Positions 1,370-62,434 of a stretch of DNA of 64,000 nt are shown here, in pieces (the stretch's first letter is position 1; every line of letters starts with the position of its first letter). Both the position numbers and the translations under genes were made by a program. The DNA is from Rugalucina vietnamica (taxonomy: Eukaryota; Mollusca; Bivalvia; Lucinida; Lucinidae), in contig OZ024876.1 in the NCBI GenBank assembly GCA_964017185.1, positions 33,953,278-34,017,277 on the forward strand, written 5' to 3'. The notes below the pieces were generated by a model. That model was not told the DNA's origin. It did not search any database and saw only the letters and a program-made list of their open reading frames with translations.

Positions 1370-4300
1370 GTAAGGTTTGATAAGCTCGATTTCTTAATTT
1401 TTTTTTTGGTTAGTTGGGGTTTAACGTTCCACCAACAGCTAAGGTCATATGGAGACGGGACCTTGGTTTATAGTCCCATCTGACGGACTGGAGAAGCCCG
1501 GGATCGAACCTGCGACCCCTGGTTTACAAGGCGAGTGACATAACCACTGCACCACGGAGGCTTCTTTGATTTTATTAGTAAAGGTATCGCATGAGTTACT
1601 TGAAACCAGAGGACCAATGGTCCTGATATCGCTCACCTGAGATTTTGTCTTTGATGAATGACCTTTGGCCATGTTGGCAAACGTAAAATGTAAACTTGAC
1701 CTCAAATACTCACATAATTATTAACACTATAAACTGTCTGTATCTACCAACTTTCAAATCTTTCTGGCAATATTTGACCTTTCTGTTTAAATTAACAGTT
1801 TAATAGGTCAAGGTCAACCTAAAGTCATGATTTACATAAACTATAAAGGGCCAGAGCCTCCAATGCTACATACCAAGTTTCATAGAAATCGGTCCACCGA
1901 TTCCAGAGAAGTTGATTTTTAAAGGATTTTACCACAAATATGGCCATCTTGGTCATGTGACCTGGACCATTTATACAAACTTTGGTTCCCCCTTCCTAAG
2001 GATTCCACATATAAAATTTGGCTTTGATTGGTGAAGTGGTTTCTGAGAAAATTAAGTTTTAAATTTAATATGTAAATGACCTTTGGCCAATGTCAAGAGA
2101 TGACCTTGACCTTGAATATTCATAGGACTTCATTAAGTCAATAAGTTGTGTGTATGTACCAACTTTTAGGTCACAGGCCACAAAACTTCCTGAAAACAAG
2201 TAGCCCATGGGCAACGATCGCTCACCTGAGAGTCATCAAGTGCAGTCACTGGACAAAGTGGTTTTTTTTTTTGAAGATCTGATAAAAATTGAAGACGCTT
2301 AACTGGCCACAACACTAAAAATTGATTTTTTAAACATTCAAGGGCAGCTAACTCCGCAGTCCAGGGTCGAATCTGGCTCAAACTCGAACTAATCCAAGAT
2401 GTTATGGTTATCCTTGTTACTTCCAAGAATGAAGAAGATCCGATCAAAACTGAAGGCGCTAGAGTGGCCACAATACAAAATATTGATTTTTCAAACGCTA
2501 AAGGGCAGCCAACTCCGCAGTCAAAGGTCGGATCTGGCCTAAATTCGAACTCATCCGAGATATTGTAGCTATCCTTGTTTCCTGCAAGAATGAAGACGAT
2601 CCACTGAAAAACAAAGATGCTAGAGTGGCCACAACACAAAATATTGATTTTTCAAACACTAAAGGGCAGATAACTCCGCAGTCAGAGGTCGGATCTGGTC
2701 GAAATTCAAACTCATCCGAGATATTGTAGTTATCCTTGTTACCTGCAAGAATGAAGAAGGTCTACTGAAAAACAACGATGCTAGAGTGGCCACAACACAA
2801 AATATTGATTTTTCAAACACTGAAGGGCAGATAACTCCGCAGTCAGAGGTCGGATCTGGTCGAAATTCGAACTCATCCGAGATGTTATGGATGTCCTTGT
2901 TACTTCCAAGAATAAAGAAGATCCGAATAAAAATGAAGGCACTAGAGTGGCCACAACACTAAATATAGATTTTTCACACAGTCAGGGGCAGATAACTCTG
3001 CAGTCAAGGGTCGGATCTGGCTGAAATTCGAACTCATCCGAGATGTTATGGCTATCCTTGTTACATTGAAGGCGCTAGAGTGGCCACAACACAAAATAAT
3101 GATTTTTCAAACACTCAAGGGCAGCTAACCACAATCAGAGGTCGGATCTAGCTGAAATTCGAACCCATCCGAGATATTATAGTTGTCCTTGTTACCTGCA
3201 AGAATGAAGAAGATCCACTGAAAAATAATGGCGCTACAGTGGCCCAGGCATTTTTTCCCATTATAAGTCTATGGGGATTTTTCCAGACGCTCAAGGGCAG
3301 CTAACTCCGCAATCTGAGGTCGAACCTAGCTGAAATTCGAACTCATCAGAGATGTTATGGTTGTTCTTGTTATTCCCAAGAATGAAGAAGATCCAATCAA
3401 AAATGAGGTTGCTAGAGTGGCCACAACATTTTCCCCATTCTAACTCAATGGGAGCTATCTGTTGCCATGGAAACCAGAGTTCTGATCCGACCTGGCCCAA
3501 AACCTAATGCAACCTTTCCCCCTCCTCAATGATGCTTCAGATAAAATTTGATTGCGATTGGCCTTGTTGTCTTAGAGATATTCAAGATTGAAAGTGTGAA
3601 TGCATGCACAGACGCATAAATTCACCCTTACGTTGCTATAGCAACCAAAATAATTACGCAATTATGACAAAAATTGCCAAAATTGTGGAGGACTAGTCAA
3701 CAAACATTTACGTAAAAACAAAACTCAAATATTTCAAGCGAAATGGCAGAAATTGCAATTTTCCGCTATTTGTCTTATAAGTCAATGGAAACTTTAAGTT
3801 GCCATAGCAACCAAAGTAGTGGGACAAGGACAATAAAAACACAAACTTTGTAGAGTCTAATAGTATAAGCATGTATGCAAAGTTTCAGCTTCATCCGCCT
3901 TACAGCTTCTGAGAAGTCAATTTTTGAATATTTTTTCGAAAATTTACCCTTTACGTTGCTATAGCAACCAAACGAATAAAGCGATTTTGACAAAAGTTGC
4001 CTAAAACGGGGAGGACTACTCAATAAACATTTATGTAAAAACAAAATTTCAATATCCTCAATGAAACGGCAGAAATTGCAAATTTCCACTTTTTGCCTTA
4101 TAAGTCAATGGAAACTTCAAGTTACCATGGCAACCAAAGTAGTTGGACAAAGACAATAAAAAACACAAACTTTGTACAGGCTAATGTCATAAGCATGTAT
4201 GCTAAATTTCAGCTTCATCCCCCATTCGGCTTCTGAAAAGAAGATTTTTGAATATTTTTTTTTTTCGAAAATTTACCCTTTATGTTGCTATAGCAACCAA

Positions 4301-6586
4301 ACGAATGAAGTGATTTTTACAAAAGTTGCCTTAAACGTGAAGGACTACTCAATAAACATTTATGTAAAAACAAAATTCAAATATCCCCAGCCTGACAACG
4401 GAAAATGCCAATTTCCACTTTTCTCCATACAAGTTCTTATCCGATCGAAATAAAAAACACAAATATTCGTTTCCCCCACCTGTAGATGCTATATGTGAAA
4501 TATGAAAAGATTCGGCCCAGCAGCTTCAGAGGAGAAGTCGTTTGAAAATGTTGACGACGACGGACGACGACGCACGGACGCTGGCTCGACTACCATACTA
4601 TAAGCTCACCTTGTGAGCCTACGGCTCAGGTGAGCTAAAAACTCAGTGTTTTCCATTTTTCCCCATTGAGAAGCCTATATGACCAATGTTGACCTTGCCA
4701 TGAAATAGGTCAAGGTCAATCCAAGGTCATGATTTATACAAACTATGATGGGCCAGAGTCCTCGATGCTAAATACCAAGTTTTATTGAAATCAGTCCAAC
4801 AGGTCCAGAGAAGAAGATTTTTAAAAGGTTTTTACCATATATGGGCATGGCAGCCATCTTGGTCATGTGACATAGACCATTTATACAAACTTTGACCCCG
4901 CTTCCTAAGAATACCACATATAAAATTTGACTTTGATTGGTGAAGTGGTTCCTGAAAAATTAAGTTTTAAATTTAATATGTAAATGACCTTTGGACAAGG
5001 TCAAGAGATGTCCTTGACCTTGAATACTCCTATGACTTCATTGAATCAATACGTTATATGTATCTAACAACTTTCAGGTCACAGGCCACAAAACTTCCTG
5101 AAAAAAAATCAAATGTTTTCACTTTTTTGCATTGAAAAGCCTATGTGACCAAAGGTGATCTTGTCGTAAAATAGGCCAAGGTCAACCCAAGGTCATGATT
5201 TATACAAACTATGATGGACCAGAGTCCCTGATGCTTCATACCAAGTTTCATTGAAATCGGCCCACCGGTTTCTGAGAAGAAGATTTTTTAAGGTTTTTAC
5301 CATATATGGGCATGGCGGCCATCTTGTTCATGTGACCATTTATACAAACTTTAGTTCCCCCTTCCTAAGGATGCTCCACATGAAGTTTGGCATTGATTGG
5401 ACCAGGGGTTTCAGAGGAGAAGATCTTTGAAAAGTGTGAACAGCAACGACAACGACGACGACGGGCGACGGAGTATGACCATCCTATAAGCTCACCTTAT
5501 GAGCCTTCGGCTCAGGTGAGCTAAAAAGCTGTCTGTTTTTAATCTCTTCAAACTTAATTGCCCCGTACAGTTTTAGATTCGCCCACGAATCTCAATTGAT
5601 GTAGGCTCTGAGCCATCGGATGGGTCTTTTTACTAAGTAACAGTGGCCGCAAAATATAAAAGGTGAAGAAAATGCTAGCTTCTGTTTACCCCGGCCGTGC
5701 ATATTTAGAATGGACATGCATGTGCCTGTTTGCACAGTCAAGCACGTTAGTGCACGTGTGTGTTACAGGCAATCGGCGAAATCAGCCGTTTCATGAAATG
5801 GCTAAAAGTTTCAGTAGCCGTTTCGTGAAATGACTTTTTCACTTAGTCGTTACATGAAACGGCTAAATATTTCTGCCTTTTCATACATGGCTGAAATCTC
5901 CATATCAGCGTTACACAAACGGACTGACAGAAAGTTATATTTTGACAAAAACGGATTTTTTTTTTTTCAAACTAAGCTCAAGCATGATCTGTGCAAGGAA
6001 TTCTTGATTCCGCACTGCTCAAATCAGACAGAATGCAATGTAGACTGATTTTCACAGAAAAAAAAACAACAGTTTTTAAGTCAAATTTCTGTAGAATTGT
6101 AGAAAGATCACATAATTTCAGGATTTCCATGGATATGATATGACATTTTAAAACTGTTTCAAGTTGTATTCAGAGACTCAAATCCGGAGTGTTTTACACT
6201 GTGCTATATGGAAAATTATACCCTGATGCTTATCAAGTTTTGGCTAGTATACAAAGCTTCTAATTACACATAAGATGGTGTTTTTACCTTATTTTGCATT
6301 CCTTTTCTTAATTTAGCTATTTTATGAAATGACTAGTCTAAGAGCAAAATTATCGTTCAGCAATTTAACGAAAAGCTGATTTTTAGCCGTTTCATTTTAC
6401 AGCTGAACGAACCAGTCATTTCACGAAACAGCTAAATATTTTAGCAATTTCATGAAACGGCTGATGTAACACACGTTGTAAGATACATGTCATGTAACAT
6501 TTTATTAACAATATTTCAGATGATTATAAAGATGGCTTACAACAGAAAAGATTTTCTCAAAGATCCTTGGCAGGTACATATTGTTT

Positions 6587-6623
<37 letters not shown>

Positions 6624-6827: not shown

Positions 6828-6884
<57 letters not shown>

Positions 6885-9800
6885 GCCACAGAAAATAGTT
6901 TGAAGCTTAAAATTTAAAAGGCATCATACTATGACGTCGCGCACGATATAGGGCAATTTCTTAAAAATGCCACCAGATGCGTTTCAAGTGATAATAAAAC
7001 AGCTAAGTTAGTGCAAAATACACAAATTATATATCAGCTTATAGGAAATTTTTCGGAGAATTCAAAAATGTTTGATTCATCTTTTTCTGTTTCAAATATG
7101 ATAACTTTTTTGGTTTAGAGTGTATGTTAACGGAAAACGTCATGAAAAGTGTATAATATTTTTCACAATGTTTGTGAAAACTTTATATCTTGGTGAATAT
7201 GCGAGGTATTAACAAAGACGATGATCAGCTGATCTGCGTCTTTGTTTTTGCATATGCAGATTGTTGGTTTTCTAGTGCGGTGGCTTCAGATTATCTGCAT
7301 TTGCGAAAATAAAGGCGCAGATCAGCTGTGCAGTAGCTGCACAGCTGATCAGCATCTTTGTTTTTGCTACTTGGACAGTACAATTCTTCGCCTACATTTA
7401 CTTAAATCCAAAATCTTAAGCATGTATCCTGCGGCTTCTGTGACTGTACAGGCCGATTTGTGTTGGACCGGGTCGTAACCCCCAAATTGTTGTTTTTCTG
7501 ATGCGTAATATCTCCAGGTGTTCGACCTGTTGGTTGTGGTAGTTAGCCTAGGGGTGGAGATTGCCTACTACATTGAGCACGACCCCCTCGTGTGCTACAG
7601 TCCTGTCACGGAGGTGGCCGGCTATATCATCTTATTTCGGTTCTGGAGGATACCTAGAGTTTGCAATAGTAAGTGCTATTTTAAGTTCCTCTCGCAACGA
7701 TTGCAGGAAAACAGGTTTGTTTGACCTGATGCATGCATTTTTTACGTTGGAATGACAGTTCATACATGATTGACTGCTAGCGTTAGTGCTCACGAAGATC
7801 CGCATAACAACAAATCGTTTCAGTGATTCATTTTTGTCCAAAGAAAGCTGAACGTTTTTCTTCAAGTCGGCTGGAGGCGTGATTTGTTTTTTCATTTTTT
7901 TACAAGTAAACGTGATCATACAATCCATGTACAGATGTAGCAAAAACAAACTTTCAGGCACTGATAAACTGCTTCGGATGTGATAAGTGCCTTTGGTTTC
8001 ACATGGACACAATATCTCTGACGCGGCTCACTCATTGAAGAAACTCAAGGCTCATTAGATATCTGGCAACTTCAAAGACTTCATAATAACATATTTTGCT
8101 TCCGGAAAAAATATCGGTGACCTGAAAGACCCTAGTGACAGAAAAAGTCTATAAGAGCGTATGTAAAACTGATATAAACTATGTTGGCTACGATTTATGA
8201 AAACGACATTCACAGTGCGTGTGCCAGAATATCAGTCGTTGGCTGGGTGGTTAATGTTTTCTGTTTGGGGTTTGTTTGCTTCTCTATTTGTAAGCTCACC
8301 TGAGCCGAAGACTCGAGTGAGCTTATAGTTAATAGGCATGATCCGGCGTGCGTCCGTCGCCCGTCGTCGTCCACAATGTCAAACATCTTCTTTGAAATCC
8401 CTTGGCCAATGAAAGTCAAATTTAATGTGGAGCCTCCTTGGGTAGTGGCATTGAAATTTTGTTCATGATATCTTGGTGACATGACCAATATGGCCGCCAG
8501 GCCCATATATGGTAAAAAAACCTTCAAAAATCTTCTTATCCAGAACCGGTTGACCGATTTCCACGAACCATGGTATGTAACATCGGGAACTCAAGCAAAT
8601 CATAGTTGGCTCAAATAATGACCCTAGGATGACCTTGGCCTATTCTATGGCAAGGCCAACATTGGTCGCCCATGCATTTGAATGGAGAAAATTGTCAAAA
8701 TGTCATTTGAAGGGAAACTTGAAGGAAATGGGCAAATGGACTGAAGATTTTATGATTCTGAAAAAATGTACCTCTTGGGATTGGTCTGCCTCCTCCCCAG
8801 GGCAATATAAATGGATATTACCATAATATTCCAAAGATCTTCTCTGAAACCGCTTTGCCAATCAAGGCCAAATTTTATTGGAAGCATCTGGCCGTTCGTC
8901 TCTCACTATCTCACTAAGGCCAAATAAAAAAATATCTGTGTTTAGGGTTTCAGTCTGAAAATTATATATATATATATATATATAATATGAGATTTAGGTA
9001 ATATACATCAAACAATCAAACCCTGTCGGTAGCACTGGATCCAATTTGGAAGCTAAAATGATATGCGGTAAGTATATATGGAGATTTTATCATCAACAGT
9101 GCAAAATCCTATTTGTGCCTGAGCGCGCTTTCGCCTTTCGGCTTCTTCAGAGGCTTACTAAATACTACATAATAAGAGTGTGATATCTACATCTGCCTGT
9201 CATAGGCAGTCCAAAACTAGGAGAAAAATGTAATCTAAAAATTCTACATACTACTCATAACATTGTAAAACCTTATATAACTACATAAGAAATAAACACA
9301 CCGCTACAAACTTGAAAAATGTAAATACAGCAAAATGGCTACGGAATTTTGAAAATGAAGAAATTTGGAAAATTAAATAGAAATTTAACAAAATTATGAT
9401 TTTTGTGGGCTAATACATCTTGGAGAGGTTGGAAACAGTGTTAGAACTGTCAATGTTGAAAATAAAAAGTACTAAATGGCGTAAAATCGTATAACTGAAA
9501 TTGAGAGAATTTCGTGACCGTTCACCTGTAGGATTATCGGAAATCTGAAGCGTCACCTGTAAGATCCGATAATCTTACAGGTGACGCTTCAGATTTCCGA
9601 TAATCCTACAGGTGAACGGTCACGAAATTCTCTCAATTTCAGTTATACGATTTTACGCCATTTAGTACTTTTTATTTTCAACATTGACAGTTCTAACACT
9701 GTTTCCAACCTCTCCAAGATGTATTAGCCCACAAAAATCATAATTTTGTTAAATTTCTATTTAATTTTCCAAATTTCTTCATTTTCAAAATTCCGTAGCC

Positions 9801-10055
9801 ATTTTGCTGTATTTACATTTTTCAAGTTTGTAGCGGTGTGTTTATTTCTTATGTAGTTATATAAGGTTTTACAATGTTATGAGTAGTATGTAGAATTTTT
9901 AGATTACATTTTTCTCCTAGTTTTGGACTGCCTATGACAGGCAGATGTAGATATCACACTCTTATTATGTAGTATTTAGTAAGCCTCTGAAGAAGCCGAA
10001 AGGCGAAAGCGCGCTCAGGCACAAATAGGATTTTGCACTGTTGATGATAAAATCT

Positions 10056-10134
<79 letters not shown>

Positions 10135-10812
10135 TTTATTTTTTATTTTTTTTTTTTTATCACCGACTAAGCATATAAAATAATAAACATGGGTATGTTA
10201 GGATAATCAGTTATCCTTAGTAGCAAAAGCCTCCAAGAAGCAGCTTAGTGCACATTTCTTTCACCAACTGCCGAAATGTATGCTCTTCTAAACCCATCAC
10301 TTCTTGAGGTGGAACTGACTCACGTTACCTAAAGTAACCTATCATCCAATGCAAAGAGCGGACAAATGATCCAGATTTATTGCTTAGCAGAGAGGAATTC
10401 CAAAAATGCACTGCATGTAAATAACTGAGATCATACTGCTCTAAGAAGTGCCAAGCAAAAGATTGGTTGGTTCAGTATGTTGGCTGTTCTATATGTCATG
10501 TTATAGGGGAAGGGCTGTAGCTAAGGTTGGTAGAACTTGTAGCCCGACCCCATTGTACTTATTATGTACAGAGACAATTAACTATGTTTAGTTTAGAAGA
10601 TTGGCCATCTCACAAACAGCTGTCAGATTGCTGCCTAATGTGGAAGTGTGCTTGTAGATAAAATTTTAGTTCACAGACTTTTATTCACCAGAATATTTGT
10701 TGTTTGACTTTTATTCACTGGAACAGTTATTTTATTCACAAGAATGTTTTAGACTTCACCAAGACAGTGACTAACTTTGCATAGTGATAAAAAAACAACA
10801 ACTAACTTTTAT

Positions 10813-10851
<39 letters not shown>

Positions 10852-13800
10852 CCTTTTACCGGTTTTACCGAGTGCGCCGATAAGTCAACGGCGGAACTCT
10901 ACGAAACAACAACAACAACAATGCAATCGGTCATGTGTCAATTTAGCAATAAATTTTAGCATCTGAGTGCTCTGTCTGCACTGCTTTATTGTCTAATTCA
11001 TATAACTCTAACTTGGCACACCCAGGCAGTGGTGTTTTAGGCAGATTTCTGAGATATTAATCGCTGTTATGTGACTTTATTGTCTACGCGCCAGCGCGTA
11101 GACTACTCTAATGTTTGAGATTGACCTACTTACAAGACAACTCATACGCCTCTCTACAACTGCAACTGCACGGTTTGAGTCTAGTGGCTTGACCATCGTG
11201 CTAGTAGGATTCCGGGTCGTTTCGCCAAGGACCGTGTAAACACCCAAAAACACCCATGCAAACCTCCCTTTGGTTGGTAACATTTGTACCAATGGTGCAG
11301 TTGGTACCAAAAATGGGGCAAATTGTAAAATTCGTGGAATTGGTGCATGATTGCATTCTATCTAAGCAACAACGGAATGAAATGAACCGACGGGTCAGGA
11401 ATGAAAGCTTTGACCGCGCCCAACCTGTGTAGCCAATTACATTCTATCCAAGCCACAACGGAATGAAATGAACCGACAGTATTGTGACGGTCGATTGTCA
11501 GGTATGAATGCTTTGACCGCACAGCGTTTTATTTCTGTTCAGAGAAATGCACCACGATGAAATGGGAGTACGGTCAGATTCTTTGACATTCTAATTTATA
11601 TATGCGAAGCGTAGACCAAGCTTTTTGTTAAAGCTTATACTTGTCGGCAATAGGTTGAAGCCGAAAGTAGAAAACTCCCGACATCCGAGAGCTTTTCGTA
11701 TCTGATTTTTGATTGGCTGTTGGTGAGCATTGCCAGAAGACGCTTGCAACTACTGTACTGAATATTTTTATCGATTTTTTGGTGCGCCTCTTTAACAATG
11801 AAGAAAAATGTTTCCGGTCGTTTCGCCCCGAGAGCGGATCGAAAAAGAACACAATTTATTTTTTGGAATGGCTTAAAAAACTTTAGGGTCTGCGAATTTT
11901 TTTAGGTAGGGTCGGGAAACCCGAAACACAGCTATTTTTTAATAGGCCTAATCAGAAAGACCATCATTATTTCTTGAATAAGGTTCATGTGTGTTGGTGA
12001 GTTCTTTGATGGCTGACTAGGACAATTCTAGCTCTTTACTGACCGTTGCAAGTAGAGCAAGTCAGTGCCATGGAATCAGCTGGTGACCCATTGATATTGG
12101 CATTGCGTTATCCTCTGCGCTTTCTTTCAGCTTCACATATTTTCTTTTTTCATAGAGAGCCGTTCCTCCTTTGTTGATGAGACTTCTCCACTTTGATCGC
12201 TCCTGTGCAGTCTGTTCCCAAGATCCTATTGGATGTAGAAATTCAGAATAGCTTTGAAGGTGTCTTTGTAGCCCTTGAGACCGCTTTCCCTCCTGTAGTT
12301 ATCCATACTTTCTTTGGAAGTCGCTCATTAGGCATTTTTATAACATAGCCAGTCCATCTTAGCTGTGCTAGTTTTAAGACTGTATGCATGCTTTGCATCC
12401 CTGCGTTTTCTATGACCTCTGTGTCTGGAATCTTGTCTTGCCACTTGATTTTAACAGCTTAAGTGGAAATGGTTAAGTCTAGCTTTCTTGGATACTGAGC
12501 TAGTATCATCTTGACGTGCCTTGTGCAATCGGTGCTTTTCTTCAGGAAGCCTCTGAATTTCATCATCGTTCTTATCAAACCAGTCTTGATCTTTGCAAGA
12601 TGGATGTCCTAAAAGAGTAGTCTTATTCGTGTCCTCTGAACTGAGATTGTTTGCATCCACTTGGTTGCAAATGTCCGTTAAGAAAGCTTGTCTCATGCTG
12701 TCTTGGTTCAGCTTTGAGACATCCAGTCTCTTAGGAGTTTTCTTGCCTTGAGGTCGCCTGTATTTCTCAACACACAGGAAGCATCCATACAAAGGGGGAA
12801 CCAATGTGTTTATAAATAATCTAGGTCACAAGACCAAGTTGGCCGCCATGCCAATGTATGGCAAAAACCTTTCAAAAATCTTCTTCTCCAGAACCGGTGG
12901 AACGATTTCAACGAATCAAGCATTAATGATTAAAGTACTACAACGTACGTGGGTCATTTCACTTGCTATTTTGCCACATTAACAGGGCGTCACGTCTTAC
13001 AACACTTATGGTCACCAAGTACTAAATCATAGTGCGTTGCGGATAAAGTTTCGTACTGCTTTTTGCATTTGAACACTATACCCCTACTGCAGCGGAGCAG
13101 GTCCAACGACGTTGCCGTTAATAATTGTGATGTTTTCTTAGTATTTGGCATTTAGGATAAAAACACTACAAACAAGAAATCTATTTCAAAAATATATTTA
13201 TACTTAGCTTAAGCCTAGGTTACATTTTCCCTACGATTAACTTGCGATTATCGTACGATGCCATTTTTTGCATTTTCGTGCGGTCTCCGCAGGGTGACTC
13301 TACGATGCCCCTACGATTCTACGGCTTCCTACGACTTCCTACGGCTTCCTACGATCTCCGTAGCCTCTACGATTTTGTAGTAGTCTGCACTTTTACAAAT
13401 TTTAAAAATCATAAGACCGTAGCCCGTAGACACGTCGTAGGTAGCATCATCGTACGGGCGCCTTTCGGAAACCCTGCAATGATCGTGCGGTCACCGCACG
13501 GTTTTATGATAATTTGGGGACTAAAATAATAAGATAATCGTAGACCTTTAGGGTGATCGTGCGGCATCCGTACGGTTATATCACAAGTTTATTAAAATCG
13601 TACGGACACCTAACATCGTACGGCTATGGTAGGGAGACCGCAAGAAATCGTAAGGACTCCTCACGGCCATCGCACAGGCTCCGTACGATTTCAACTTAAA
13701 GTGTATGGAGACCCTTTGATTTCCCTACGATCTCCAAACAGTTCCGACTCAGGACATCGAAGAAAGCTAGAACAAGAAATCGAACGATGCCCGTATGAAT

Positions 13801-16800
13801 TGTAAACACCTACGTCGTAGCCCATGATCACATTCGATTTTTAAAAAATCGTAGGGAAATCGCGGACCGAAAAATCGTACAATGATCGGGGCAAATGTAA
13901 CCTACTAGTCATGACCCCTTGCGGCCTCCCTACGATCACTGTACGATTTTTGTTCCCAAATTATCATAAAAAATCGTGCGGTGACCGCTCGATTATCGCA
14001 GGGTGCCCGTATGATGCCCTGCGACGTGTCTACGGTCTACGGTCTTACGATTTTAAAATTTGTAATAGTGCAGACTATTACAAGATCGTAGAGGCTTCGG
14101 AGATCGTAGGGAGTCGTAGAATCGTAGGGACATCGTAAGGTCACCCTGCGGAGGCCGCACGAAAATGCAAAAAATGGCATCATCGGAAGCTAATCGTAGG
14201 CCAAATGTAACTAAGGCATCAGTCAGAAGTCCAAGGGACTCCGTACGATATCCACTAACAGTCTGCGGAGACCCTACGACTACCGTGCGGCCTCCTTGCG
14301 TTTTGTATCAAAAAATATAGGGATTCCGTACGGACAACGCACGGGATCCGTACGATATCTACGTACTATCTGCGGAGACATACGACTGCCGTACGATCGC
14401 CTTGCGTTTTTGTATGAGAACGTCGACAAATGGCAGATCAAAAAAATCGTACGATGCCCGTATGAATTGTTAACACATACGTCGTAGCCCACGATCTCCT
14501 TCGATGTCTAAAAATCGTAGAGAAAATCGCAGACCGAAAAATCGTACGATGATCGGGGCAAATGTAACCTAGGCTTAAATGATGCTGTAGCATATAATTG
14601 GAAATTTAAGTAAAATAATTATAACCAAAGATCAGGCATGCATAATAAGAATAATTAACTAGTTCTATCTACTGTTAACCACTTCCCATAGTAATATTAC
14701 TGTTAGCTGAAATCCCTTTTTAAAAATAGGTGGCATGTAATAAAAATTGAAGTCCCCAATTAAAATGAAGCAAAATAATTGCTTATTTTCCATGAAAGAA
14801 CATATTTCAGATGTTTAAATATAATGACCCTGTACTTTTGCTCCGCATGTTTTTGCCGACGTCATAATTTTGTCGTTGAAACTTTATAGGTAAACTTCTT
14901 TATCTTTCTCCCAAACTATCAAATTGTCCTCAAATTTCATAATATTATCATTAAATGATAGTAAGGCTTGTATATTTTTCTTAAAGATCACAATATATCT
15001 TTGTTGATTTAGCAGATTGCGAAAAATAGCAGTTCCGAAAACATTTTGCATAATTTGACTTGCTCCGGTCATGCCTACTCATGGTTACCAAGGTAACTGT
15101 AGCATTGAGGTCTTTGAAGTGAGTGTCATGTTGTACCGTGAGTAAAATAAATTCCAATATGGCCAATTATTTTGTATGAGAACTTTTTATTTGTTCCGGC
15201 TATGAGTTCTGGATAAAATGCGTGTGTAACGGGACTTTTGGGACAAGCCTCGTATAAGTCAACATAGGTCGCCGATGCATTTAAATGGGAAAACTGTTAA
15301 AATGTCATTTTAAAGAAACTGTCTTGCAGGAGATGGGCAGAAGGACTGAATATCAATGATTCTGAAAACAATTGGACGCCAGAGGTTCATCTGCCCCACC
15401 CCGGGGCAATATACATGTATATTACCATAATATTCAAACCTCTTCTCCTCTAAAACCGCTTGGCCATTCAAAGCCAAATTTTAAATGAAGCATCTATAGG
15501 AAGGGAGAACCAAAGTGTGTATGAAATACCCAGGTCACATGACAAAGATGGCCGCAATGCCCATATATGGTAAAAACTACAACTACTTTTCTTTTGTCCA
15601 GTGACTGTGTCTTTTGGACTCTCAGGTGAGCGATCGTTGCCCTTGGGCTACTTGTTTCCTTACCCATTTATGATGAATGGATGCCGATCATTATCAATTG
15701 AGAGGGTCCACTGTCATTGCGAGGGACATCAGGAGTGACTTTTTTTAAATTTCATTTTTTCGATTAAATCTTTTTAAGCAAACAGAATTGCAAATCCTTG
15801 TGTCGTACAAATAAGACGCCAGCCTAAATGAATTAATAGGAAGGTTGCGAAAAATATACGGGTACGGGTACGTGTAGAGCAGAATTTGTTCAAATATAAT
15901 TCTTGCAATGTTTATTGTCGTGCCAAAGGTGATTTTGGTTCGGTACACCGTTACGGTGCAAAACGATGGGGCTGGTACGTCGCGGTGCGAAACGGTACGG
16001 TAGGCACGATACGCTACGATACGGTGCGAACCGGAACGATAGGTATGGTACGGTGAGAAACGGTTCGTTTGGTGCAAAGCATTGCGAAATGGTGCGGGAG
16101 ATACGGTGCGATAGGAACGCTGTCTACGGAGCGATACGGTAAGGCGGCTACAGTGCGGTAAGTTGCGATGCTGTACGGTATTTGCAGTGCGTCTATACGA
16201 TGCAGTGTAGTAAGGCTCGATACGGTGCAGTCCGATAAAGTGTGGTACTATGCTTCGAGTGCGATGCGATATGGTAATGTGTATTCCGTTACGACGCGCA
16301 GGGTGTGGTACGTAAGAGTGATGCGAAACGGTGCGATATAGCTCCGCAAGAACGGTGTGATACGGTACAGTCAGTACGTTGCGATACGTAGCTGTTAATA
16401 CGGTACGATAGGTACGATAAGAATGACGCGGTTAGAACGGTGTGGTAAAATACGGTGCGATCAGTTGCGATACGGTACGGCAAGTAAATTGCGATACAAT
16501 ACGGTAAAGACGGTACGATACGGTACAGTAAGTTTCTATGCGATAGGTACGGCTAGTATATTGCGATTCAGTACGGTAAACACGAAGCGATGCGGTACGG
16601 TAAGTACGTGATACGGAAATATACGGTTCGGTAATTACGGTGCAATACGGAACCGTACTTTTAACAAACCTTAAAACATTACATGACTTTTCTAAAGTAT
16701 CGTATAAACCTATCGCAAAGTATTTTATCGCACCCTTTTAACCGTACCGTATCACGTCGCACTTTGCGTACCGTATCGAAGCTTACTTACCGTGTCATAT

Positions 16801-19800
16801 CGCACCGAATCATTGTGCCGTTTCACATCTGACCGTGTCGCACCCTACTCATCATACCATATCATACATGGGTATCGAAATATACCTTACCGTATCACAT
16901 CGTAAACGAAAAATATTCATCGATATGGAACTGTAAGTAGGGTGCGACACCGTAAGTATGGTACGATACGGTACCCAAAGTGCGGCGCGATACGGTACGC
17001 TGAAAATGGTGCGATCCCTTGCGATAGGTACATACGGTACTGCAGAAACGGTATATATTGTACACGAAACTGTAAGTAAGGTACGGTATACATGTAAGAA
17101 CTACCGTATCGCACCGTAATTACAATCCGTATTGAACCTTATCGCATCGTACTTATCGTATCGTTTGGTACCGTATTGCAACGTACTAACCGTACCGAGC
17201 CCTATCACACCATATTTACCGTTATATTTCGCACTATATTCGCCGTACCTCATTGTACCGTATTAATCGTGCGTATCGCCAGTTATTGCTTCGTACTGAC
17301 TGCTTCGTTCGTACATACCTTTCGCTAGGTACCATACTTACCGTACCGTATCACATCGTACTCGGCGAACTGTGTCGCACCGTTCTAATGCAGCTTTCAC
17401 ACTTATCACGATTCCACCACGATTGGTAATGTGGTCTTCATTGTGGACCAATCGGGACTATCGTATCCAATCTTATCAGATCGCATCACATCTTGATATC
17501 AATCGTGATATTCGGGCTAATCGTGGAAATTTTTTTGGCTGCCAAAAATTTTGCCACGATTACCACGATTGGTGGGACTATCGTGACCATCGCATCAGAT
17601 CGTATGACATCGTAACAAATCGCAACAAATCCTATCTCATCTTGTTCCTAAATCGCGGTGATCGGGATCGACTAAAACACCGCGCTCTGTTGAGATGAGT
17701 TGCGATCTCCTACGAATTGTTACGGTCTGTTACGATTCGAGAAAAAATGCCTGGCCCGATTAATTGCGAGGCGATGCGAATGACTCCCGATAGGATTCGT
17801 TTTGATACGAGTAAATGCGATGGGACACGACAAGCCACGCTTTTGCCACGAATGCTTACGATCTGTTACGAATTATCAATACATTAAATACATCGGGCAA
17901 GATAACTTTTATTCCTTGATCAACAACAGAAAAGTAAATATCAATACGGTCCTTTTCAGTATTAATTCGAAATCTGAAGGTTGCCAGGAAATGGCAACAG
18001 AGACAGGGATGGAAAGGGGAAGGATAAGGCATTAATAATGCAAATGTCGCATTCTCGTCATTCTCTGCTCCTCCATCATCAGTGTTGTTTCGTTTTCAGA
18101 GATTAAAAACGTAATGAGGTATATATTTGTTTTCGAAGTAAATATACCAATCGCGGTCTCATCGTGACACAATCTTTGCCACAATCGCCAAAAATCAAGC
18201 CAACAATAGTAAACTATCGCAACATATCGTATCAGTTCTTGAGACTCGTACCAGAACGCATCTAAGCGTATCAGTTCGTATCAAATCGCGGTCAAGTATC
18301 GTGAGAATCGTGTCAGATCGCATTAGAATCGGGGTTTAATCGTAATAATCTTATCGGATCGCAACAAATCGTATCTATTCGGGACCAATATCGTGTCGCC
18401 AGATTTTGACCGATCGCCAACCTATCGTATCAGATTGCAACAGATCGTATCAAAACGCAACGACTCGTATCAGAACGTCAGATTTTGGCAAAATGTCCCG
18501 ATTAGCTGCGATTTGTCAATCGTGGCATTCGTAACAGATCGTGCTCTAGTGTGAAAGCCGCATAACGTACCGCTCTGTATCATACTGTAATTGCTGTGTC
18601 TTGCCGTTCTAACGTGTCGCACCGTACTCATCGTATCGAAACGCACCTTCCGTATCGCACTGTACTCGCAGCATTATCGCTGTACCATGTCGCACCGCAC
18701 CGTATCGAACATTAGGAGCACCATTCCTCCAGCACCATTTCGCAACATACCGCACCAACTATACCTTTTCTCAACATATCGTACCGCTTCTCACCGCGCC
18801 GTACCAACCATATCGTTTCGCACCGTAACGGAGAACGGAAACAAAATCACCTTTGACACGACAATAAACATGGCAAGAATTATATTTGAACAAAAACTGA
18901 TCTACCCGTACCGAGTACCCGTACACGTACATTTTTCGCAACCACTCTAATGTTTTTCTAATTCAGTATATTACATAACTGGTCTATTTATTTGTTCCAT
19001 ACATACAAGTTTTGCAGTAACAGCTGTTCTTTTGTTCTTAAACCCGTAATGATCTTTATTTACAGTAAAGAAGAAAAGTTATGCTAGGAAGCTCGACAAT
19101 GAACTCGTGTTCCTTAGGAAAACTAAGACAGACATTGACAAAAAGTACCAAAACCTTGAAACACTTTACGAGAAGCAAATGGTAAGTCTGGATCCATATG
19201 AGTGGTGGCATCATCAGGGTATTTCATTGGGTATACTTTCTACTGGGTCCTGGCGTAGGTAGGGACAATAAACCATGTACATTACGAATACACGCCCATG
19301 TAATATATAGATTTTTCTGAAGTTGTAAAAATAGAAAATTTTCCTTGAAATTGTTTAATATTTTGCTCAAAACATAGATTGTGGGTACACGTTAGAACCG
19401 CCTCGTACTAACGAGTGCCCACAATATATGTTTTGGACAAAAAATAAAAAAAAGTATACAGACCCCATTTTTCTATATAAAAAAGTGTGTATGCATTTCA
19501 CGGACATGTTTTCCTGATGTAAAGTGAAGTATGAGAGTCAAAACAATTGAGTTTTAATTCAATTACTAGTATGCCAATGTTATGTATTGAAGGCATCCAG
19601 AATATAAACAAGTAGCCCAAGGGCAACGATCGCTCACCTGAGAAACAAAACAAGCGGTTACAGAGAAGATCTTTGAAAAGTGTGTATAGACGACAGATGG
19701 ACCAATGTCAAGAGATACCTTGACCTAAATTAATCACATACCTTCATCTACTCCATTAGTTGTTTGCATCTACCACTTTTCAGGTCTCAGGCAGCAATAG

Positions 19801-33890: not shown

Positions 33891-33938
33891 ATGAAACATA
33901 TCTCAATTGGCGTGTATTCTCCATTGACTTGTACAGTT

Positions 33939-40512: not shown

Positions 40513-40556
<44 letters not shown>

Positions 40557-46100: not shown

Positions 46101-46887
46101 GCAGACCAACCCCTGAGGTCAAAATGTTTTTGGAATCTTACATTTTTGGTTCATTTGCCAATGTCCTACAAGTTTTGCCCTTCAAATGACATTTTAACAA
46201 TTTTCCTCATTTCCTCATTCAAATGCATGGGTGACATACATTTTGCCATAGAATATGCCAAGGTCATCACAAGGTCATAATTTATAATCACATTGTAGAA
46301 CTTCAGGACCAGATGCTTCATGCCAAGTTTCGATAAAGTCAATCGAAGTAATTATCTTCCCATTCCAGATGAGAAGATTTTTTAATATTTTTTTTCACCT
46401 TATATGAGCATGGCGCCACCTTGGTCATGTGACATAGATTATTTATAAACACATTGATTCCCCATTTCTATACATATTGCTTCTTGTAAAATTTGGCTTT
46501 GATTATCCAAGGGTTTTCAGAGAAGATCTTTGAAAATGGTGGATGATGACGACAACAGACAGACACCAGGTACCTCATTACGAATACATGCCCATGTACT
46601 ACACTGATTTTTCCTAAGTTTTGAAAATTTTAAATTTTTATCAGAAAAAAAAATTGATATTTTTAATATTTTTGTTCAAAACATACACTGTGGGTACACG
46701 TTAGAACCGCCTTGCCTAGGCAGTTCTAACGAGTACGCACAATGTATGTTTTGGATCAAAAATAAGATAATAAGGTATACATGTACCCCTGAAAACCCCA
46801 GTAGTGGGGTTTAAAGGGGTATACATTTCATGGACATGTTATCCTGATGTATAAGCTCACTCATGTGCCATAGGCTCAGGAGAGCTA
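46100..46887 (+). mobile_element. Hairpin-ended element, right part, interrupted by a MITE
   Basis: The family body (GCCACCTTGGTCATGTGAC, CAGAGAAGATCTTTGAAAA) runs to about 46571. The diverged right hairpin is at 46850-46887 (AAGCTCACTCATGTGCC, GGCTCAGGAGAGCTAA). Between them is the MITE 46572-46849. No left end could be placed; it may include the tandem repeat to its left. Confidence 0.6.
46572..46849. mobile_element. GTGGGTAC-hairpin MITE, best copy (278 bp)
   Basis: Left ACCTCATTACGAATACATGC, hairpin ACACTGTGGGTACACG...GAGTACGCACAATGT around GCCTAGGC, right 'TTTCATGGACATG' and TATCCTGATG. TA occurs at both junctions and may be the target duplication. 46890-47160 is unassigned. Confidence 0.75.
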
Positions 46888-47277: not shown

Positions 47278-50200
47278 ACTTGGCCGTCCAAATCCAAAAA
47301 AGTGGCTTTGTTTTGGTTTTGTTGGCATTTTTGAGTACATTATTCTACCTATGCTCATAATATTCCTTGGCATGTGCCCAAACTCGTACGGGTGGATGCC
47401 AAGTATGTAAATGACCCTGGGCCACAGAACAAGGTCAAAGGTCAAATGAGTGCAAAATAGCAAAAATCTGTAAAAATGAAAATAAACATTATTGTTTTGG
47501 AAAATAATGGACTGATTATAGGTAACTTGTATTCATGTCATTCCTTGAAACGTGTCCAAAGACATAGAGGTGGGTGCCAAGACTGTAAATGCTCCTGGGT
47601 AACAGAATTAGGTCAAAAGTCAAATGAGTGCAAAATAACAAACACCTTTATAATAACCAAGTATTTCTTAAATCAAACATGAACTGACTAAAGGCAACAT
47701 GTGCTTATTTTATTCATTGACAAGTGCTTAAACTCATACGGGTATATTCCAAGTCTGTAACTGCCTCTGGGTCACATAATTAGGTCAAAAGTCATATGAG
47801 TGCAAAAATATCAAAACCTGTTATGGTAATTAATAGTCCTCTAGCTACCCATACCCCCTTCCCCCAGGGGGAATTTTCTACACTGTGATTTTCTAAAAGT
47901 ACATTGAAAAACCTATCAGACCCTATTTTCTGCCAGTGGAAGCGTTTGCGTTTTACGCTGTGTTCTATTAAAGTACCCTAAATATTCATTTTTTGCGTTT
48001 TTATAATGGTATACACATAGATCAATTATTTGTAATCCTGGACCATTGAACTTGGTCTCATTTTAAAGCTCAGACATAGCCCTTTCTTCCTATGATAAGT
48101 AATGGAAAATATCTAATTTGTTTATTTCATGAATTTTCGTTAACTTTAAAATGAATAAAAAGAAACAATTCAAAATCAATTACCCATAAAAACTATTGTC
48201 ATGCCTAAACTATCATTGTGGCTTATTGTTATTGTACCAATAATACTATTTGACAAATTTGTTGATGACTCATGGGCCTAATAAAAAAAAATATCTCATT
48301 TGCATTTTCATGAATATAAATGAAAATGACGAAAATCAAGATATACAAAGGGAAAATATATTGCTATTTGAAGGGTTTAGGGTAGGATATCTATAGGATG
48401 TACCTTGCACCCTTAGAACAAATGCCCAGTTTGGTCAGAGGATCACTTTATTGCCCTTGTGTGTCACGTAAAATCAAAGAGTGTTCACCCCTACCCCTAA
48501 TAAGCAGAGGAAGTAGTGTGGTACACCTATATTGCCACATGTTTCTTGGCTACTGACAGACCTTAAGAGAGCAGAAATAGGCATCAAATGATTGCTTTGA
48601 CAATGCTTAATAACCATGTAATAAGATATAAATATCAAACTGACTTCCTGGTGTTCGAATATTAATGAGAACTTTATATATTAGAAAAAATATCACAGAA
48701 AAATGGAGTATACCAGCACAATTTGATTGTATCTCGTCAACCGAAAGCCCTAGAGAGCTTAAATTGGTACCAAATGATTGCTATGACAAAGTTCTATAAC
48801 TCTGTAATAAGAAATACGGTATAAAAAACTGGCTAATAAGATATACGGTATAAAAAACTGGCTATCTTAATGCTCAATATTAATGAGAAAAATAACAGAT
48901 AAATGAAGGGGGTCTACCAACAAAATTGCTAATATCTCAGCTACTAAAAACTCTAGAGAGCTGAAATTAATATCAAATGATTGATATGATAATGGTTTAT
49001 AATAATGTGATAAGATACAGAAAAAAATTGACTTTCTTGAGGTTCAAATCTTGATGAGAACTTTCAATATTAGAGAAACATCACACAACAATGGAGGGGG
49101 TATACCTACAGAAATGTTTATAGCTCAGCAACCAAAAGCCATAGAGAGCAGAAATTGGTATCAAATATTGCTATTACAACATTCTAAAACCACGAAATAA
49201 GATATATAAATATTCAGACTTTCGTGTTGTTCAAATATTGATGAAATCTTATAATATTAGAGAAAAATCACAGCAAATGGAGGGGTGATACCTACAGAAA
49301 CGTTTATACCTCAGCAACCAAAAGCCATAGAGAGCAAAAATTGGTATCAAATGATTGCTATGACAATATTCTATAACCATGTAATACAGTATATAAACAA
49401 GCTGACTTCCTTGTTTCTCAAATATTTAAGAAAACTTAAGATTGGGAGAAAAATCACTGGCAAGCGAAGGGGTATACCAATAAAATTGCTAATATCTCAG
49501 TGACCAAAAGCTCTAGAGAGCTGAAATATGTATCAAATGATTGCTATAATAATGTTCTATTAAAGTGTAATAAGATGCATAAATAATCTGACTTTCTTGT
49601 TTCTGGATTAATGATGAGAACTTTGATTTTAGATAATCTCAGAAAAATAAAGGGAGTATACCAACGGAATCGTTTATATCTCAGCAACCAAAAGTCATAG
49701 AGAGCAGACGTTGGTATCAAATGATTGCTATCTCAATATTCCATAAACATGTAATAAGGTATATAAACAAGCTAACTTTCTTGTTTCTCAAACATTTAAG
49801 AAAACTTAAGATACAGGAGAAAAATCACTGGCAAACGAAGGGCGCATACCAATAAAATTGCTATTATCTCAGTGACCAAAAGCTCTAGAGAGCTGAAATA
49901 GGTGTCAAATGATTGCTATAATAATGTTCTATAATAGTGTTATAAGACGCATAAATAATCTGACTTTCTTGGTGTTGGAATAGTGATGAGAACTTGAAAT
50001 ATTAGATAATAATCTCAGAAAAATAGATATATCAACGGAAACGTATATATCTCAACAATCAAAAGTCACAGAGAGCTGAAATTGGTATCAAAGGGGATTG
50101 CTATGACAATATTCTATAATCATGTGATAAGATATATAAACAAGCTAACTTTCTTGTTTCTCAAATATTTAAGGAAACTTAAGATATAGGAGAAAAATCC

Positions 50201-51302
50201 TTGGCAAACGAAGGGGGTATACCAATAAAACTGCTAATATATCAGTGACAAAAAGCTCTAGAGAACTGAAATTGGTATCAAATGATTGCTAGAATAATAT
50301 TCTATAACCATGTTGTGAGACACACAAACAATCTGACTGTCTTGTTTTTCGAATATTGATAAAAACTTAAAATATTAGTGAAACACGACAGAAAAGTGGA
50401 TGGGGTATACCAACAAAATGTTTTATAACTTAGCAACCAAAAGTCATAGAGAGCTGAAATTGGTATCAAATGCTTGCTATGATAATGTTCTATAAACATG
50501 CGATAAGATAAATGAATAGTTCAACTTTCTTATTGTTTGAATATTGATGAAAACTTAAAATATTTGATAAAAATCACAGTAAAATAGAGGGGTATACCAA
50601 CGCAAACGTTAATATCTCAGCAAGCATAAGTCCTAGAGATCTGAAATTGGTTTTAAATGATTTTTATGACAATAATGTATAAACATGTAATAATATATAT
50701 GACCAAGCTGACTATCCCGTTGCAAAACATTAAAAAAACTTGAGATATAAGAGAAAAAACACAGACAGATGCAGGGGAGTGTACCAATAAAATTGCCAAT
50801 ATCTCAGCAACTAAAAGCTGCAGAGAGCTGAAATTGGTATCAAATAATTGCTACGATCATATTCTATACATAATTGATACAAAAAGTACCTAAAAGAGCT
50901 TAATCACCATCAGAATACCACTGACACTGATCTTTATACAGACAATTGTAAAAGGGCATGAAAATAAGCATTTTTTGCACTAAAGTGACCTTTGACCTAA
51001 ATCTGCATTACTTTGTTGTAACAATTGTTACTGATTACAACATACAAATGCATAAGATGTAATTTGGGTTTTTGTACCAAAACAAATGAAAATGTTACAT
51101 AAGATACTGCTATTATGTTAAACTATCTCAAATTTTGCACTTAGTTGACTTTTGGCCTATTTTTGGGACTCTGGGGCATTTTCAGACTTGGCATCCACCC
51201 TAGCATGTATTGTTACACATTAAGGTACTTATTAAGCATGGATGCCAAAATGTACTCAAACATGCCAACAGAAAAATATTTGAGGGGCTTGGGAGGCCAA
51301 CT
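47278..51302. mobile_element. 4-kb terminal-inverted-repeat element with two tandem arrays
   Basis: Ends are imperfect inverted repeats: ACTTGGCCGTCC on the left against GGGAGGCCAACT on the right, with a further shared inner block GTTGGCATNTTTGAGTACAT. ACTAT (possibly TACTAT) borders both ends and is a candidate 5-6 bp target duplication. The interior has a 168-bp tandem (47370-47830) and a longer array (48490-50880). 47831-48490 and 50881-51240 are AT-rich. No transposase was seen. Confidence 0.65.
48490..50880. repeat. Tandem array, about 186-bp unit, about 13 copies, dimeric higher order
   Basis: Variants of 'GAGAGCTGAAATTGGTATCA' recur near 48570, 48755, 48957, 49147, 49332, 49515, 49701, 49887, 50072, 50259, 50447, 50638 and 50827. 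In the middle, two types alternate: one with 'AAAAGTCATAGAGAGCAGA' and ACCATGTAATA, the other with 'AAAAGCTCTAGAGAGCTGA' and AATAGTGT. This gives a dimer of about 372 bp. Confidence 0.85.
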
Positions 51303-51550
51303 ACTATCCGTGTAGCGAAAACAAAGATGCTGATCAGCTGTGCAATTACTGCAAAGCTGATCTGCGCCTTTGGTTTCGCATATGGAGATTGTTTTCTCAT
51401 TTGGCTCATTTAATACAATACATGCATATGAAAAAGTCATTACTGGTTAAAAACACACTATATACTCAAGTTTCTCATTATGTAATAAGTGTTTCTCATT
51501 ATGTAAGTGTCGGGCAATATAGTCTGTGTTTGCTATCATATACCGGGTAA

Positions 51551-51760
51551 GCCACCGCATGGGAAAACCAACAATCTGCATATGCGAAAACAAAGATGCA
51601 TATCAGCTTCGCAGTAACTGTGAAGCTGATCAGTGCCTTTGTTTTCGCTACATGAAGAGTACAATACCTCCTTTCTAAATCCAAAATTTCCAACCTCTAG
51701 CCATGGTTTGTTTTGGACCTGGTCGGAACCCAAATTGTTGGCTTTCTCACCCACAGGCTC
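51551..51760. mobile_element. GATCAGCTG-hairpin MITE, intact-looking
   Basis: Ends GCCACCGCATGGGAAAACC and GGCTTTCTCACCCACAGGC, with the internal hairpin CAGCTTCGCAGTAACTGTGAAGCTG. Confidence 0.8.
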
Positions 51761-51837
51761 ATTTATGTACATCACATCACAGACACAGAGTTCGACCTGA
51801 ACCTGTATTGTTTTCATCATGATAACATGCTGGTGAA

Positions 51838-52104
51838 ATGTATTCCCCACTAAACCCAACTTTAATATAGAGAAAATGGGGTTTACACGGGTATACTTAT
51901 TTTTCTAATTTTAACTTCAATACATACATGTACATTGTGGGTACTCGTTAGAACTGCCTCGCCGAGGCAGTTCTAATGTGTACCCACAATGTATGTTTTG
52001 AGCAAAAATATTTAAAAAAAAAATATAAAAATATCCAATGAATTTTTCAATTTTTTTTCTTCTGAAAAAAATCTCTGTATATTGCATGGGCAAGTTTTCA
52101 TAAT
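51838..52104. mobile_element. GTGGGTAC-hairpin MITE
   Basis: The hairpin at about 51922-52000 reads TACATTGTGGGTACTCGTTA, GAACTGCCTCGCCGAGGCAG, then TTCTAATGTGTACCCACAAT. Flanks carry GGGGTTTACACGGGTATAC and ATTGCATGGGCAAGTTTTC. 52105-53085 downstream is unassigned; the ORF 52495-52791 has no recognisable similarity. Confidence 0.8.
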
Positions 52105-53085
52105 GGTTAACATTATACAGTAGAAGATCATGAGGGCCTGCGTAGACGTTTTTAAAAACAAAATTCACGTGCGTTTATTCCCAGGGACTATTTTCATTTT
52201 GAGGCTAGCAACCACGGGTCACCTTTTCATCAGCTGATTACATGAAAACACTTGAATACGTGACTCTAAACCCTCAAGAAATGAATTGCTCAAGGATGAT
52301 ATTATCCAAAAATGTCAGCAAAGACATTTGTCACCCAAAAGCCTTGCCACACGGACGCCATGAAAATGGCCGTTTTTTGACGGCACACACCAGCCTCAGG
52401 AAATCTAATTTTTTATCTATTTATCATTAAACGCACGCATCCACACCCATACCGGTAGATGCTCTAATAATTCTTCTTTTAATTAAGGTCATCCATGCCA
52501 CGATTGGTACATGACCATTTTTCTAACCCATATTTAACAATGAGCTTCCGGTTTCATCGGTCACCTTCATTGAGAAAATGTGGAATTCACGAGTCCTTGA
52601 CGACAAATTTAAACACACGAAAAATACATAAACAAAGAAACTCTTACCAAAATTCAAGCATAGTAATCCATACTGGCGTCCTAGTAGTCTTTTTAATGCA
52701 CTTCGGGAAAGTAATGATCAAGAAATGTAAATTATTTCGCAAAAAAAATCAAGACAATCTCACTAAAACACAAACGACATTTGCCAGTTGAAACTGTAAA
52801 TAATGAAACGTCATACAAAGATGGTCGCTCACAATGACGTCATGAACGAAAGAATATCAGTTGCGGATCTAGCGGTTCTCTTTTTGGGTTATAAATTAAT
52901 GGGGAAAGTAATTTGATCGGTTTTAAAGTGTGAAATACGGTACGAATGACAGGCACTTAAGCCGTAACGATACACGCACGTGGACGTGTTCGAATCCTTA
53001 ATTGGTTTTGAAAGCACCTGTTAATTTTAATGACGCCGGTCGGCCCAAACACTTGACTTAAGACGGTACTGTCCCATCTAGATCT

Positions 53086-53916: not shown

Positions 53917-54146
53917 GAGCCGCGACGCGAGAAAACCGGTATCGGGGTTTCCGACCATGTCCGACACGAACCGGTCTGTACAGTCACAGAAAAAAAGCTA
54001 AACGCTTGAAATTTTGGATTTAAGTAGAAGAGGGGTTGTACTATCCGAGTAGCGAAAACAAAGGCGCTGATCAGCTGTGCAGTTACTACACAGCTGATCT
54101 GCGCCTTTGTTTTCGCATAGGCGAAAACCCGGTTTTCTGATGGCGA
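53917..54146. mobile_element. GATCAGCTG-hairpin MITE
   Basis: Ends GAGCCGCGACGCGAGAAAAC and CCCGGTTTTCTGATGGCG. Hairpin CAGATCAGCTGTGTAGTA on the minus strand with its partner. 54147-54727 is unassigned. Confidence 0.8.
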
Positions 54147-61467: not shown

Positions 61468-62434
61468 AACCAGAGGACCAATGGTCCTGTAAACGCTCAC
61501 CTGAGTCTGCTGCATATACCAATAAACATGTTTGAATATTATGGTATTTAACCCCAATGCAGGGGCAGATGAAGCCCTTTGGCCGTTTTCTTTTTTCAGA
61601 ATAATCAATATTCTGTCCATTTGCCAATTTCTTGCTGGCTTTTTTCTTCAAATGACATTTTAACAGTTTTTCCCATTCAAATGCATGGGCAACCCATGTT
61701 GACCATGCCATAAGCTTGGTCAAGGTCATCACAGGGTCATGATTTATATATACATTGTAGTACTTTAGCCATGGATGCTTCACGCCAAGTTTCATTGAAA
61801 TCAATCTATTGGTTTCAGAGAAGAAGATATTTGAAGGGTTTTTACCATATATGGGCATGGTTGCCATCTTGGTCATGTGACCTAGATTATTAATATACTT
61901 ATTGGTTCCCCCATCCTATAGATGCTTCACATGAAATTTGGCTTCAATTGGCCAAGTGGTTTCAGAGGAGAAGATGTTTGAATATTATGGTAATATACAT
62001 GTATATTGCCCCGGGGTGTGGGCCCTTAGGTCCATTTTTTCAGAATCAATAATATTTAGTCCTACTGCGACCTATGTTGACCTTGCCGTAAAATAGGTCA
62101 AGGTCATCACAGGGTCATGATGTATATACACATTGTAGTGCTTGAGCCATCGATGCTTCATGCCAAGTTTCGTTGAAATCAGTCCACCAGTTCTGGAGAA
62201 GAAGATTTTTGAAGGGTTTTTACCATGTATGGGCATAGCGGCCATCTTGGTCATGTGACCTGGATTTCTTATATATACATTGGTTCCCCCTTCATATAAT
62301 TGCTTCATATAAAATTTAGCTTTGGTTGGCCGAGCGGTTTCAGAGAAGAAGATCTTTGAAATTGTGAACGGACAGACGAAGGATCATGGCCATCCTAAAA
62401 GCTCACCTTGTGAGCCTAACAGCTCAGGTGAGCT
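61468..62434 (+). mobile_element. Hairpin-ended element, alternative-left-end type (967 bp)
   Basis: Left AACCAGAGGACCAATGGTCC then TGTAAACGCTCACCTGAG. Right hairpin 62398-62434 with TGAGCCTAACAGCTCA, then AAAA. Two copies of the CATCTTGGTCATGTGACC block are inside. This is the best copy with this left end. Confidence 0.85.

Follow-up and report, generated by a model that had tools for sequence, protein, structure and literature searches.

The window, by which we mean the whole 64,000-nucleotide stretch analysed here (Rugalucina vietnamica, contig OZ024876.1, positions 33,953,278 to 34,017,277 of the forward strand, part of a 1.09-Gb genome in 47 contigs), is populated by a family of repeats bearing an 11-bp subterminal inverted repeat (subTIR). 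We are highly confident that these repeats are HINEs, that is, Helentron-associated elements, non-autonomous and derived by internal deletion from autonomous Helentrons that the genome also contains. An earlier note, made from the sequence alone, had described an element class of at least ten copies sharing one plan and an 11-bp inverted repeat, and this is confirmed: the motif (CTCAGGTGAGC/GCTCACCTGAG) occurs 18 times in the window with at most one mismatch (15 exact) as against 0.38 expected from shuffled sequence, and the ends listed, 11 to the right and 10 to the left, resolve into 11 elements, E1 to E11. Both ends are present in nine of them (E1–E7, E9 and E11); the left (3') end is decayed in E8, none was found for E10, and one surplus left-type end lies within E9 at 41453. 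Genome-wide the motif is found 67,212 times, compared with 54 for a reversed control, the exact 11-mer being about four times as dense in the window as on average in the genome.

The elements and three example ends are as follows, A and B denoting the two types of 3' end, the leader being the noncoding front part of an autonomous copy, and MITE standing for miniature inverted-repeat transposable element.

1606 to 5523, minus strand: E1, a HINE with a B-type 3' end (1606–1641) and its 5' end at 5490–5523; it hosts the nested E2, and its best leader match is autonomous copy C10
5490 to 5523, minus strand: the 5' end of E1 as an example, with TA and the subTIR GCTCACCTGAG with nested inverted repeat, forming a two-step hairpin
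2197 to 4637, minus strand: E2, a HINE nested in E1, with an A-type 3' end (2197–2230), a 5' end (4604–4637) and arrays of 161-bp units (2273–3064) and 323-bp units (3618–4422)
2197 to 2230, minus strand: the A-type 3' end of E2 as an example, with subTIR CTCAGGTGAGC, palindrome GCCCATGGGC and terminus CTACTTG
8292 to 15654, plus strand: E3, a long copy packed with other repeats, A-type 3' end at 15621–15654
19609 to 20599, minus strand: E4, a HINE with an A-type 3' end and a leader of the ~459-bp type
27103 to 31342, plus strand: E5, a HINE with an A-type 3' end (31308–31342), a decayed 5' end and a 315-bp array (28388–29194)
31539 to 33888, plus strand: E6, a HINE with a B-type 3' end (33853–33888)
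33940 to 35027, plus strand: E7, a B-type HINE whose first ~1028 nt align to nt 1–1022 of an autonomous Helentron at 79.8% identity
38101 to 39041, minus strand: E8, a HINE in a MITE-like repeat, with a decayed 3' end and TA(AAA) lost at the 5' end
39809 to 41620, plus strand: E9, a HINE that seems to be chimeric, lying within a second MITE-like repeat, with an A-type 3' end (41587–41620) and an internal extra B-type 3' end from 41453
46064 to 46887, minus strand: E10, a HINE 5' end and core (subTIR at 46875–46885) with a MITE-like repeat inside (~46576–46848); 3' end not found
61470 to 62435, minus strand: E11, a HINE with a B-type 3' end (61470–61505)
61470 to 61505, minus strand: the B-type 3' end of E11 as an example, with subTIR CTCAGGTGAGC, palindrome AGGACCATTGGTCCT and terminus CTCTGG

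E5, E6 and E7 (27103–35027) stand in tandem order and in one orientation, with spacers of ~196 and ~51 bp. Inside E3, at 9073–10064, there is a perfect 493-bp inverted repeat (100% complementary, 6-nt spacer), which could be a foldback insertion of very recent date or an artefact of assembly.

Read 5' to 3', an element comprises a T-run, the 5' subTIR TAGCTCACCTGAG, a complementary inverted repeat able to fold with it, often a GTC-rich microsatellite, the core, the 3' subTIR CTCAGGTGAGC, a palindrome and the end, which is the order of parts given for HINEs in PMC4067079 and PMC7492417. Because of this published order, together with the sense of the Rep-helicase (RepHel) frame of the autonomous partner described below, the right end as drawn by the earlier note is the 5' end of the element and the left end its 3' end. 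The large hairpin with 'CTAAAA' is thus the 5' end and the small outer hairpin the 3' palindrome, reversing the left-to-right polarity implied before. At E3, E5, E6, E8 and E10 'TAAAA' is altered or lost. Seven of the 11 5' ends and eight of the 10 3' ends have a perfect subTIR. The local inverted repeat at the 5' end, AGGTGAGC, which is complementary to the subTIR, is perfect in four of the 11 copies, with one mismatch in four and two in three. After the 5' end GTC is found 4–8 times per 90 nt in six elements and 1–3 times in the other five, the window mean being 0.97. A palindrome with arms of 4–7 bp follows the subTIR in 10/10 3' ends of the window and is of two types, A (GCCCTTGGGC, terminus CTACTTG) and B (AGGACCATTGGTCCT, terminus CTCTGG); over the last ~60 nt, identity is 58–92% among A copies and 58–87% among B copies, compared with 32–49% between the two. 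Across the genome, one A-type 3' end pattern with T as the next base has 1878 exact matches. The end strings from the window gave no matches in viral_contigs or genome_contigs, one 57-bp end had none in phages, and a literature text search for the strings returned no transposon paper among the matches listed; there was no Rfam match at the gathering score and no tRNA.

The earlier note had proposed a search for a Rep/helicase partner carrying the same ends, and such a partner is present in the same genome. Searching the genome for the Helitron Rep domain PF14214 (Helitron_like_N) gave 409 candidates, of which 150 loci were scored; among the matches listed all lie above the cut-off, many of them in frames of 2500–3500 codons. 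From a large group scoring 101.4–102.1 bits we sampled 13 loci (the L039/L040 locus, ten others, and two for the A type), and in the stretches read HINE ends surround the Rep region on both sides at nine, with the 5' end only at two and the 3' end only at two. The L039/L040 locus (G000:C7:11862313-11876241, 13.9 kb) was read whole and has a frame of 2621 codons, in the HINE sense, flanked by a HINE 5' end on one side and on the other by a 3' end of type B. Its Rep region is 84–95% identical to those of six loci, L033–L038, and has no match to the rest of 30 Rep loci at E 1e-20. For the A type there is an 18.5-kb autonomous copy (G000:C7:14396171-14414668) with a 2596-codon frame, according to the Rep search, and an A-type 3' end, and at a second A-type locus, on C9, both ends are present. 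Taken separately, the 30 Helitron-Rep loci L009–L038 form 11 clusters at the nucleotide level; in some of these, frames exceed 3500 codons and copies are more than 99% identical.

The 2621-codon frame, scanned in two pieces, contains Herpes_teg_N, DUF6570, Helitron_like_N and PIF1 domains and a weak Exo_endo_phos match. The Rep domain scores 101.5 bits, above the cut-off, and PIF1 (PF05970) is matched in the same frame at E=2.5e-18. Its N-terminal part is similar to the structure of a deubiquitinase from a zebrafish Helentron (8add, E=2e-25); PIF1 chains are matched by the helicase portion, and Helraiser by a short segment. Within the window no Helitron domain was found in ten of the 18 frames of at least 120 aa, one of the ten being a reverse transcriptase, nor in six-frame scans of E3 and E5, where there were three weak hits below cut-off.

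As HINEs are dense in this genome, they might lie by chance beside RepHel genes, so that the autonomous copies merely appear to have these ends. Controls bear on this: four loci of other Rep clusters, read over 20 kb each, have no HINE ends around their frames, notwithstanding two separate complete HINEs beyond the frame at control locus C2 and a truncated one at control C12. Since these two controls have HINEs nearby, a single end close to a Rep gene carries little weight, and it is position together with the border of identity that decides. Both ends flank the frame in nine of the 13 loci, and in the eight of the 13 copies compared at their borders identity is 98–100% up to the ends and is lost just outside. 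For four B copies, identity is 99.1–99.8% over the 1270 nt that begin the element at its 5' end and 26–40% over the 100 nt preceding it; at the 3' end five copies are 98.1–100% identical inside and 23–33% outside; and two to three A copies give 99.0–99.7% inside and 20–33% outside. Chance neighbourhood is accordingly very improbable, and the near-identical full-length autonomous copies are, judged by their sequences, recent. C12 was considered as a further partner and rejected, its 3' end being that of a truncated HINE 90% identical to E11 which three sister loci lack (201 bp at equal distance). What the HINEs and the autonomous copies have in common is the 5' end, the 3' end (A or B), the orientation relative to the RepHel frame, and a T on both sides, all of which supports the Helentron-associated (HINE/pearl/DINE-1-like) class suggested in the earlier note.

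The sites of insertion agree with this assignment. With element bounds taken as TAGC...CTTG or TAGC...CTGG, a T precedes eight and follows all nine of the window copies that have both ends, and among the autonomous copies a T precedes 11/11 of the 5' ends found and follows 11/11 of the 3' ends found. Two exact empty sites are available. E2, reported earlier as a nested copy inside 1604–5522 and here placed at 2197–4637 within E1, has its empty site at 5055–5165, in a duplicated segment of E1, and its flanks match with an equal number of A's. The flanks of E9 match copies of a MITE-like repeat that run uninterrupted at 41966, 46848, 51816 and 19518, within a T run. Insertion at T|T (A|A on the strand of the earlier note, as it had supposed) without a fixed-length duplication at these two sites is supported. 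The earlier use of 38100–39041 to define boundaries fares less well: E8 does lie within a repeat, also present at 54044, 51307, 35601 and 51652, but its ends are decayed and the junction is not exact. The family hosting E9 comprises copies at 41966–42238, 46576–46848, 51816–52107, 19280–19518 and 26354–26776, one of them inside E10, and that hosting E8 has copies at 35601–35705, 51307–51400, 51558–51652 and 54044–54144.

These results bear on two other classes of element. Canonical Helitrons are rolling-circle relatives, the 'CTAAAA' of the earlier note resembles their CTRR, and in Pacific oyster 257 of 751 Helitron-like sequences with TC/CTAG ends have subTIRs (PMC7992393). Against this, 'CTAAAA' belongs to the 5' end, seen in reverse, the elements terminate on the 3' side in CTACTTG or CTCTGG, insertion is at T|T, there are subTIRs, and the partner combines a deubiquitinase domain like that of Helentrons with a weak match to an endonuclease; neither termini nor target conform to 5' TC, 3' CTRR and A|T, and it is highly unlikely that the elements are canonical Helitrons rather than Helentrons. 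Cut-and-paste elements or MITEs with inverted-repeat ends would account for 11-bp inverted repeats near both ends, for the high copy number and for E3 and E5 having no Helitron domain. The repeats are, though, subterminal and the ends otherwise dissimilar, neither E2 nor E9 has a fixed-length duplication, and RepHel frames occur in elements that have these very ends. Terminal inverted repeats with a duplication of fixed length are thus not what is seen, the latter at two empty sites, and we regard this origin as extremely improbable.

The satellite-like cores can be related to the autonomous copies, whose leaders contain arrays with periods of 454–471 bp, 325 bp, or 146–461 bp. The earlier note gave the cores as 161-bp or 320-bp arrays; E2 has both kinds (161 and 323 bp) and E5 a 315-bp array, whereas the nine others (E1, E3, E4 and E6–E11) match the ~454-bp leader array of an autonomous copy, at 79.8% over 1048 columns for E7 and 80.8% over 782 columns for E8. 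As 9/11 cores match this array, most HINEs look like internal-deletion derivatives. E11 also matches the last ~55 nt of the autonomous copy, and A-ended window copies have 40–78 nt in common with the A-type autonomous 3' end. When 11 leaders are compared from the 5' end, the best is of the 454–471-bp kind for E1, E3, E4, E6, E7, E8 and E11; for E2 it is copy C1*, with a 325-bp array (69.6% over 1097 columns); for E5 and E9 it is of the A kind, over ~260 nt; and for E10 there is none. E3 and E4 join A-type 3' ends to leaders closest, of those 11, to the ones of C2 and C10, copies whose own palindromes are of type B, and this suggests that ends have been exchanged between subfamilies, at least as far as the 11 sampled leaders reveal.

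Several observations weigh against the identification of these repeats as derivatives of the autonomous elements. Four of the 13 sampled Rep loci show one end alone in the stretch read, and the 18.5-kb A-type copy is known from stretches outside its middle. The endonuclease match of the L039/L040 frame (PF03372, E=0.0011, 19.2 bits) is below the curated cut-off of 24.5. Several of the 3' palindromes have 4-bp arms alone, for which chance is possible, and pair counts over 20 3' ends are without real covariation: 85.7% of cells pair, but just one change is two-sided. The filled site of E9 exceeds the closest empty copy by two T's, and there a TT duplication and a variable T run are indistinguishable. 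Lastly, the 161-bp array of E2 is in no autonomous stretch fetched and was found only in the HINE loci L001–L003; on this ground, that array may have been captured. A general form of the same idea keeps the HINE identity and takes the satellite cores to be captured host sequence ('filler DNA') rather than the element's own leader, capture being one of two models discussed in PMC7492417. With nine of 11 cores matching the 454-bp-type leader, and E2 matching a leader with a 325-bp array, this is unlikely, yet it deserves more weight than any of the other alternatives.

With the repeats taken as Helentron derivatives, their closest described counterpart is Cg_HINE of the Pacific oyster (PMC7492417), which likewise has a 5' subTIR of 11–12 bp, a nearby complementary inverted repeat, a GTC-type microsatellite (here clear in six of the 11 copies), a satellite-like array, a palindrome after the 3' subTIR, a T-rich or TT target without duplication, and a high copy number. 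The comparison is one of structure, and the two differ in that the HINE ends recur on autonomous elements here, whereas the oyster authors could relate none to theirs. The earlier note had held that the ends differ from any known to it; since every published Cg_HINE substructure is present, albeit with the microsatellite clear in just 6/11, there is no new class. HINE/DINE-1 elements and Helentrons (PMC4067079) share the subTIRs, the 5' inverted repeat nested in the subTIR (DINE-1), the 3' palindrome, terminal Ts varying in number, and the status of the HINE as a Helentron deletion derivative. The mite elements of that paper differ in having the 3' subTIR 38–60 nt and the palindrome 8–35 nt from the terminus, compared with 23–25 and 4–6 nt here. 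Helentrons with a herpesvirus-tegument-like deubiquitinase (PMC9741609), among whose hosts molluscs are named, resemble the partner in the VTD-type domain, which is N-terminal in the RepHel frame (8add match above). The bivalve pearl elements CvA, CvE and CvG are alike by description (via PMC7492417 and PMC11136912), their conserved ends enclosing short arrays of ~160-bp repeats.

A large part of oyster genomes consists of Helitrons, the satellite-carrying HINEs among them (PMC11136912). The oyster study notes ten autonomous Helentrons in Repbase, none relatable to its HINEs, and leaves undecided whether the satellites are captured or intrinsic (PMC7492417); in a later Pacific oyster assembly paper no autonomous copies were detected (PMC7992393). 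Our literature search, with most subscription papers and Repbase outside its scope, gave among the matches listed no bivalve paper whose title links HINEs to an autonomous partner. The element class is already known; what this genome adds is near-identical full-length copies with the same ends and long open frames, and leaders that match most cores.

Two further features of the window were seen. Frames of a non-LTR (long terminal repeat) retrotransposon-like element occupy 43246–45216, the middle one (43793–44767) having RVT_1 at E=1e-20, and at 48566–50868 units of ~188/373 bp are repeated in tandem, the shorter about 12 times, with no subTIR-like match nearby.

By analogy with known Helitrons, Rep would nick at the 5' T|T junction, the helicase would then peel off one strand, the 3' palindrome would signal termination, and the freed strand would join a T|T target, the HINEs being moved in trans. 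As they retain the leader and the last ~40–80 nt, HINEs would thereby spread the leader array as satellite-like DNA. We propose, tentatively and with slightly more doubt than conviction, that the leaders of recently active Helentrons are the birthplace of much of the dispersed satellite DNA in this genome, deleted copies scattering subfamily-specific arrays while 5' leaders and 3' palindromes are swapped among subfamilies with one 11-bp subTIR. If true, a strand begun at the 5' end of one subfamily can terminate at the 3' palindrome of another. Any transfer of these findings to oysters would be by analogy; in R. vietnamica itself, two questions from the oyster study, namely which element moves HINEs and whether their satellites are captured or intrinsic, become directly testable.

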